Shown piece after piece: positions 13,564 to 15,240 of a stretch of DNA of 64,000 bases. Every line of letters starts with the position of its first letter. Within the stretch, counting starts at the first letter, position 1. The stretch is from Oscillospiraceae bacterium (lineage in GTDB: Bacteria > Bacillota > Clostridia > Oscillospirales > QAMX01). The notes under the pieces are model-generated. The model was given only the letters and a program-made list of their open reading frames with translations. It searched no databases and was not told the DNA's origin. The DNA lies in the NCBI GenBank assembly GCA_015067675.1, contig SVMB01000001.1, forward strand, positions 1 through 64,000, written 5' to 3'. The position numbers were made by a program, and so were the translations under genes.

Positions 13564-13589
13564 TCCCCGGATTCCGACAAATCCGGGGA
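13564..13589 (-). terminator. Intrinsic terminator of the broken acyltransferase gene
   Basis: Hairpin CCCCGGATT / AATCCGGGG followed on the minus strand by ATCTTTATT. It starts only 8 bp after the stop that the acyltransferase would reach (13598) if one base of its homopolymer were removed, which supports 13598 as the ancestral gene end. Confidence 0.8.
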
Positions 13590-13597
13590 ACTTTTCA

Positions 13598-14633
13598 TCA
13601 TATCAGCCAGCGCCTGACCCAAGGAATACGGGAAAGGAGCATATACACCACTGCCGACGCGCCGAAGATCAGCAGGGCGTCAAAAAGCGTTATGTAAACC
13701 GGGGGGGGGTAAACCGATTTGATTTCTCACTGCACGCAGACCGTACAGGAAGAACACGTGCACCAGATAGATGCAGAAGGACGCTTTTGAAATCCATGCA
13801 GCCGCGACAGCAGGACGTCCTGCGAGTGTGTTTCCCACATGGGTGAATAAGGCGAACAGTCCCGCGGCGTAGAGACAAACGCCCAGGCTCATTCCCTCGA
13901 GAAATCCCTGATAGGTTGCGCCGCGCAGGCAGGAGACGACGATCGTTCCGCCAAATATCAGGAGGAAACCCGCCGCAGCCAGTGCGGCGCCGGTTTTCCG
14001 GGAAAGGGGGTACCGTCCCAGATAGTGCCCCAGCAATCCGTAGCCCGCCGATGCCCAGGCCATGTTGAGAAGCCATTGGGCGGGGATGCCCGAAAGCAGT
14101 GAGAACGGCCAGAACGGCCGCAGCGTGGGATAGACAATGCCCAGAACAAACCAGATACCCAGCGCGTAGAGAAGCTCGCGCTGAGTCGCGTGTACCGTCA
14201 GTATGCGCAGGATCGGTAGCAGTGCGTAAAACAGCAGCGTGATGTGCAGGTAATAGAGGTGAAACTCATGGCGAAAGAGCAGCAGGTCTTTCAGAGCCTC
14301 CGCGATTGCGCCGACGGAGAAATCCCCGCCGCGCAGCAGGCCAAAGAGCGCGTATGCACCTGCCCAGACAAAGAGGGCGACCAGAATGCGCGGGATATAG
14401 CGTGTCATGAGCTTCTTTACCGGCAATTCCCGGTCAGGATCGAGAAACAGTGCGCCCGAGCACATGAAAAACAGCGGCACGGCGGCGCGGGCAAGGCTGG
14501 CGGAGAGCACGCTGAATGTCCATTCAAAGGAGCGTATCGGCTGGTCGAAGGAACACAGATGGATGACGATGACACAGAAGATGGCAAACGCCTTGGTCAG
14601 GTCAACGCATGCGTTGCGGTTCGATGTGGGCAT
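13598..14633 (-). pseudogene. Acyltransferase 3 family membrane protein, frameshifted at a poly-C tract
   Basis: The intact part is a 10-helix O-acyltransferase of the acyltransferase 3/OafA family (MPTSNRNACVDLTKAFAIFCV ... 'SKASFCIYLVHVFFLYGL'), which acetylates or otherwise acylates surface glycans. As sequenced, translation ends at 13680 with the non-homologous tail GLHNAF, 317 residues. The break follows a run of nine C on the coding strand (13701-13709). Removing one C lets the frame continue through VYITLFDALLIFGASAVV and YMLLSRIPWVRRWLI to a TGA at 13598, giving 344 residues with the expected last transmembrane helix. The total length 13598-14633 is one base over a multiple of three. 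It could be a phase-variable gene, a real null or a sequencing error. Confidence 0.8.
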
Positions 14634-14643
14634 GAAATCCCTC

Positions 14644-15201
14644 CTACCTCAGCGCAAGCCCGTCGGAAAACGCCTTGCCCGCAATCTCGCCCATGCGGCG
14701 GTAGGTGTGGTGCACCGGGTCAAAGCAGATGGGATCGAGCTTTTCAGGATCGATCTTGCCGTCGGTGAGGATTGTCTCATCGGCGCTGACGTTGACAATC
14801 TCGCCGATGAGCAGCTCCGACTCCTCGTCGTAGCTCACCAGGGTACACTCAAGCGTCATGGGCAGCTCGTCGATGATGGGCGCGTCCACACGGGAGCTTT
14901 TGGTGCTGTGCAGTCCTGATTTGGCAAGCTTTGCCGGTACCTCGTTGCCGGATGCGATGCCCACATAGTCGCAGGCGGTCACATGGGCGGCGTCTGCCAT
15001 GCTGACGGTGAAGGCGCCCCGGGCACGGATATTCTCCATGGTCTTGTGGGTGGAGCTGACGTAGATGGCGATGCGGTTGGTGTCGGCGATGCAGCCCCAG
15101 GCGGCGTTCATGGCGTTGGCGGTGCCGTCTGCATTATAGGTGGCGATGATGAGCACGGGCATGGGATAGAGAAAGGCCTTTGCGCCGAAATCTTTACGCA
15201 T
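14644..15201 (-). CDS. Flavin reductase-like FMN-binding protein
   Basis: The 185-residue protein is a flavoredoxin/flavin reductase domain (FMN split barrel): 'YPMPVLIIATYNADGTANAMNAAWGCIADTNRIAIYVSSTHKTMENIRA' covers the flavin-binding strands, and 'ESELLIGEIVNVSADE' the later dimer strand. Such proteins hold FMN and serve as electron carriers or NAD(P)H:flavin reductases in anaerobes. GGAGG lies 8 bp before ATG 15201; ATG 15207 is only 2 bp from it, so 15201 is preferred. It is transcribed from its own promoter and ends 10 bp before the acyltransferase start, so the two may form an operon. Confidence 0.85.
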   Translation of the reverse strand: MRKDFGAKAFLYPMPVLIIATYNADGTANAMNAAWGCIADTNRIAIYVSSTHKTMENIRARGAFTVSMADAAHVTACDYVGIASGNEVPAKLAKSGLHSTKSSRVDAPIIDELPMTLECTLVSYDEESELLIGEIVNVSADETILTDGKIDPEKLDPICFDPVHHTYRRMGEIAGKAFSDGLALR

Positions 15202-15240
15202 AATCATATCCTCCGAAGCAGTTGTATCAGGTATGATTTT

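Follow-up and report, generated by a model that had tools for sequence, protein, structure and literature searches.

A poly-C tract as a candidate phase-variation switch in an acyltransferase 3 gene of Clostridia

In the stretch of DNA analysed here (64 kb, referred to as the window), an acyltransferase 3 gene loses its reading frame at a run of nine C. This raises the question whether the gene is decaying, wrongly assembled, expressed across the break or switched on and off at random, as proposed in an earlier note on this DNA. The following features are needed for the answer.

13680 to 14633, minus strand: acyltransferase 3 (PF01757) gene, truncated in the assembly reading, 317 aa (open reading frame; Pfam E 7e-30, residues 8-309)
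13701 to 13709, minus strand: C9 homopolymer, the proposed switch (from the sequence), in the loop of residues 307-310 before the last helix
13695 to 13715, minus strand: GGTTTA-C9-GGTTTA, the tract with identical 6-bp flanks (from the sequence)
13598 to 13700, minus strand: out-of-frame 3' end with the last transmembrane helix and the conserved C-terminus LSRIPWVRRWLI; stop TGA at 13600-13598
13564 to 13589, minus strand: intrinsic terminator past the full-length stop; 11-bp stem, -22.8 kcal/mol, z -5.6
14644 to 15207, minus strand: flavin reductase-like gene directly upstream of the acyltransferase (PF01613, E 3e-18)

The interrupted acyltransferase gene and its missing 3' end

The assignment to the acyltransferase 3 (AT3) family made in the earlier note was correct, as the PF01757 profile matches with 104.6 bits against a curated cut-off of 31 (E 7e-30). 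The residues D11, K14, H25, H125 and H292 are invariant in the window protein and its homologues (22 homologues aligned). The AlphaFold model of the read-through protein is confident and all-helical with a mean pLDDT of 90.9, and a Foldseek search of the PDB with this model yielded no significant match, HGSNAT being among the weak hits (E 0.39, probability 0.85). In known cases, AT3 proteins modify cell-surface sugars (PMC9558356), and judged by its family, the window enzyme probably decorates such sugars as well. The open frame of the flavin reductase-like gene ends 10 bp before the ATG of the acyltransferase, and both genes are probably part of the same operon.

A frame broken after nine C, a total length one base over a multiple of three and duplicated GGTTTA flanks had been described before, and all three were recovered in the sequence. 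Beyond C9, the annotated frame (14633-13680) reads LPPPGLHNAF* and closes at most seven codons past the ninth C (13701); the neighbouring frame reads VYITLFDALLIFGASAVVYMLLSRIPWVRRWLI* with its stop at 13600-13598. The GGTTTA copies lie at 13715-13710 and 13700-13695, and positions 13598-14633 comprise 1036 nt, one more than a multiple of three. Removing one base from C9, or adding two, opens 33 further codons. The window gene thereby shows two features of contingency loci, namely a frame-controlling homopolymer of at least eight bases and an otherwise intact gene on both sides, no lesion besides C9 being found before or behind the tract.

By sequence comparison, the 33 tail codons belong to the real gene, because they end in LSRIPWVRRWLI, as the genes of almost all homologues do, and because the last predicted transmembrane helix is encoded here. 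The homologues used for this comparison, from genomes of the same order and from named Clostridia and Oscillospiraceae MAGs, extend over 337-349 aa from the start of the match and nearly all terminate in variants of LS[KR]IPxVxRWLI. In the AlphaFold model, C9 falls into the loop of residues 307-310, and the lost part contains the long last helix (311-333) and a short C-terminal one (337-342). The coding score of the tail is 2.9 in the neighbouring frame vs -11.3 and -30.5 in the other two. Since the homologues continue in the other frame and the tail is coding in that frame only, the frame shift is not a chance effect, and the conserved C-terminus downstream together with the single coding frame points to a break that is either recent or reversible. 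The restoration of 33 residues with the missing final helix by dropping one C is hence supported by homologues, model and coding score. The further claim that the gene would then end at 13598, 8 bp before a terminator, also held: the full-length stop lies 8 bp from the stem given above (-22.8 kcal/mol, z -5.6).

Tracts in homologous genes

The survey of homologues covered 97 loci in draft sequences, mostly MAGs; the comparison set has one genome per species, with 21 genomes of the family, all of other genera than the source. In-gene G/C runs of at least eight bases were found four times, namely the C9 of the window, a C10 and a C9 in a pair of species from a single sister genus (G006 and G013, loci L157 and L147) and a G8 midway along the gene at L140 of the MAG SIG488. 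All four are out of frame. The relatives are thus not uniformly intact and free of homopolymers, the counter-case named in the earlier note; three other species carry out-of-frame runs of 8-10. In 105 kb of homologue genes the four runs stand against none in 443 kb of flanks (p 0.0014; 0.007 without the ascertained window and 0.037 if origins are counted, with the sister species as one). The tracts occupy at least three positions in the homologous genes (5' end, middle and 3' end).

In G006 and G013, the tract follows immediately after the start codon, the ATG frame runs into a TGA just past it, and no usual start codon leading into the gene body in its own frame was found. Both tracts probably share one origin. 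The gene bodies differ by dN 0.33 and dS 1.66, and the gene is therefore maintained by purifying selection although both assemblies are out of frame. The tract is kept in both species, with 42% of comparable fourfold sites kept and 58% changed. The combination of a maintained body and a retained tract favours a reversible switch rather than a dying gene as far as can be read from these sequences.

Most homologues have an open frame and no run. Others are split without a long run (L142 by an in-frame stop, L145, L162, G007), and some breaks among the homologues therefore represent decay or error. In L142, L145, L162 and L215, which are split by an in-frame stop or a frameshift, G/C runs of at least seven bases are absent. 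A search of viral contigs with the flank of the tract gave no match. Furthermore, 40 tracts of the family were classified by codon scores, a noisy procedure in which GC-rich loci often score on both strands, so that clear cases only were used. In another genus of the family, a G11 (L086 2195-2205, G005:C48) splits a Proton_antipo_M gene, off by one base; the product is a hydrogenase/NADH dehydrogenase-like membrane subunit.

Long G/C runs across the source genome

The source genome is a 3.67-Mb draft of 169 contigs and 73% completeness, in which runs were counted by pattern searches. Exact G/C runs of 7, 8, 9, 10 and 11 bases occur 19, 1, 2, 0 and 2 times, respectively, a series with an excess of long runs over simple decay. 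Together with the difference between homologue genes and flanks, this amounts to an over-representation of G/C tracts. Runs of at least eight bases are very rare in the actual genome, with five cases, two of them inside coding sequence and both out of frame. The C9 is the only G/C run of at least seven bases in the window; a dinucleotide shuffle of the window gave a mean of 3.5 C8/G8 matches, and the run is therefore not improbable by composition alone. Both coding 9-runs (in the window gene and in L035) are out of frame, whereas 10 of 10 clearly coding 7-runs are in frame (Fisher p 0.015).

The second coding C9 (L035 4220-4228, corresponding to G000:C93:24219-24227) lies within the gene of a secreted SLH-domain surface protein, which is out of frame in the assembly; by its sequence, it is a candidate for a second frame switch in the same genome. 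The two G11 tracts (G000:C89:2940-2950, L034, and G000:C152:13266-13276, L036) are located upstream of paralogous DUF3502 lipoprotein genes, one of whose products also carries SBP_bac_1. Each is placed exactly 20 bp upstream of a promoter-like pair (TTGAAA-17-TAAAAT / TATTAT), and this combination of G11 and promoter occurs at these two sites only in the whole genome. Such an arrangement is possibly a promoter-type form of phase variation. The single C8 (L033, G000:C3:414-421) belongs to a 5' untranslated region, with a TATAAT box on one side of it and a ribosome-binding site on the other, and no Pfam match was obtained for the gene of about 190 codons behind it. As a genome control, A/T runs of at least nine bases were considered; two with an apparent coding signal (L068, L076) seemed on inspection of their open reading frames to be intergenic or at gene ends and were thus uninformative on frames.

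Probable phase variation, its alternatives and known systems

On the comparative evidence, a phase-variable gene is the best reading of the window acyltransferase and a likely one. The proposal of the earlier note is thus supported in part: it gains from the out-of-frame runs of 8-10 in homologues of three other species, and the "surface glycan" named there as substrate derives from the family. Slipped-strand mispairing during replication would alter the length of the poly-C tract. Lengths of the class 8, 11 and so on would give the full protein with the last transmembrane helix and the conserved C-terminus, and other lengths, including the assembled C9, a truncated and presumably inactive one. 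The resulting population would be mixed, with some cells acylating a sugar at the surface or in the extracytoplasmic space and others not.

Homopolymers are the usual site of indel errors, and a consensus or assembly error, in which the true tract preserves the frame and the gene is intact, has to be considered for a source as fragmented as this one (169 contigs, 73% complete). In addition, the homologue tracts are all found in MAGs, and the contig of L140 has a coverage of about 5. However, the coding 7-runs are in frame without exception (10/10), the homologue cases stem from different isolates and from at least two MAG series (RGIG, SIG), and an error would account for the frame but not for the enrichment of long runs in homologue genes, which makes this explanation unlikely. 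Quite unlikely is also a fixed loss of function, that is, an ordinary slippage frameshift on the way to a pseudogene. Split homologues without long runs do exist (L142, L145, L162, G007), but the window gene has no second lesion before or after the tract, the bodies of out-of-frame homologues are under purifying selection and the tract was retained in two species at a dS of about 1.7.

The clearly frameshifted tracts (window, L095, L097, L140, L035 and L086) are all one base too long. This uniform excess is a little surprising and counts against free switching, for which in-frame or off-by-two states would be expected too; the common direction may well result from ascertainment by run length, a 9-run arising more often from 8 than from 10. 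The same six tracts would need an identical +1 step if the gene were subject to programmed recoding, in which a +1 shift of the ribosome or slippage of RNA polymerase on the C/G run yields some full-length protein from every copy, and CCC-C is a +1-prone site for tRNA-Pro. Against such recoding, which we consider very unlikely, stand the unconserved position of the tract (5' end, middle, 3' end), its composition of C in some genes and G in another, the majority of homologues with an open frame and no run, and the in-frame long runs that also occur in the family according to the (noisy) codon scoring (L087, L094, L116). Phase variation thus remains the preferred reading. Beyond the single gene, it can be suggested, tentatively and with somewhat more doubt than confidence, that the lineage runs a small G/C contingency set. 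This would comprise the AT3 frame switch, its tract gained independently at three places in different genera, the SLH frame switch and the G11 promoter switches at the paralogous DUF3502 lipoprotein genes, each G11 preceding the -35 box by exactly 20 bp.

AT3 genes are phase variable in Haemophilus influenzae (oafA) and Salmonella (oafB) (PMC9558356). The lipooligosaccharide O-acetyltransferase gene oafA, which was frameshifted in the first genome sequence, resembles the window gene as an AT3 gene that is phase variable there and a candidate here; in contrast, it is associated with tetranucleotide repeats instead of poly-C, belongs to a Gram-negative pathogen and its switching has been demonstrated (PMC9558356). 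Salmonella oafB is likewise an AT3 gene that is on or off within a population, but its control is epigenetic and tract-free (PMC9558356). With regard to the tract, the window gene is similar to the classical G/C homopolymer and other simple sequence repeat contingency loci of Campylobacter and Neisseria, whose hypermutable tracts are both coding and intergenic (PMC8355987; PMC5084427). These genera feature many tracts per genome with proven length variation, whereas the assembly of the source genome has five runs of at least eight bases. In the Firmicute Listeria, inlA is reversibly inactivated by a homopolymer frameshift, which differs by its 5' poly(A) and by the gene concerned (PMC2831843). 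A full-text literature search of limited extent gave no report for Oscillospirales-type Clostridia. The present finding is likely a further case of a known type of system.

Recurrent tracts at differing sites of one gene would indicate selection for switching rather than a chance repeat. If the reading as a phase-variable gene is true, the acylation of surface sugars would be switched at random in common, mostly uncultured gut Clostridia, as in mucosal pathogens, with implications for phage resistance, for recognition by the immune system and for variation at the level of strains.
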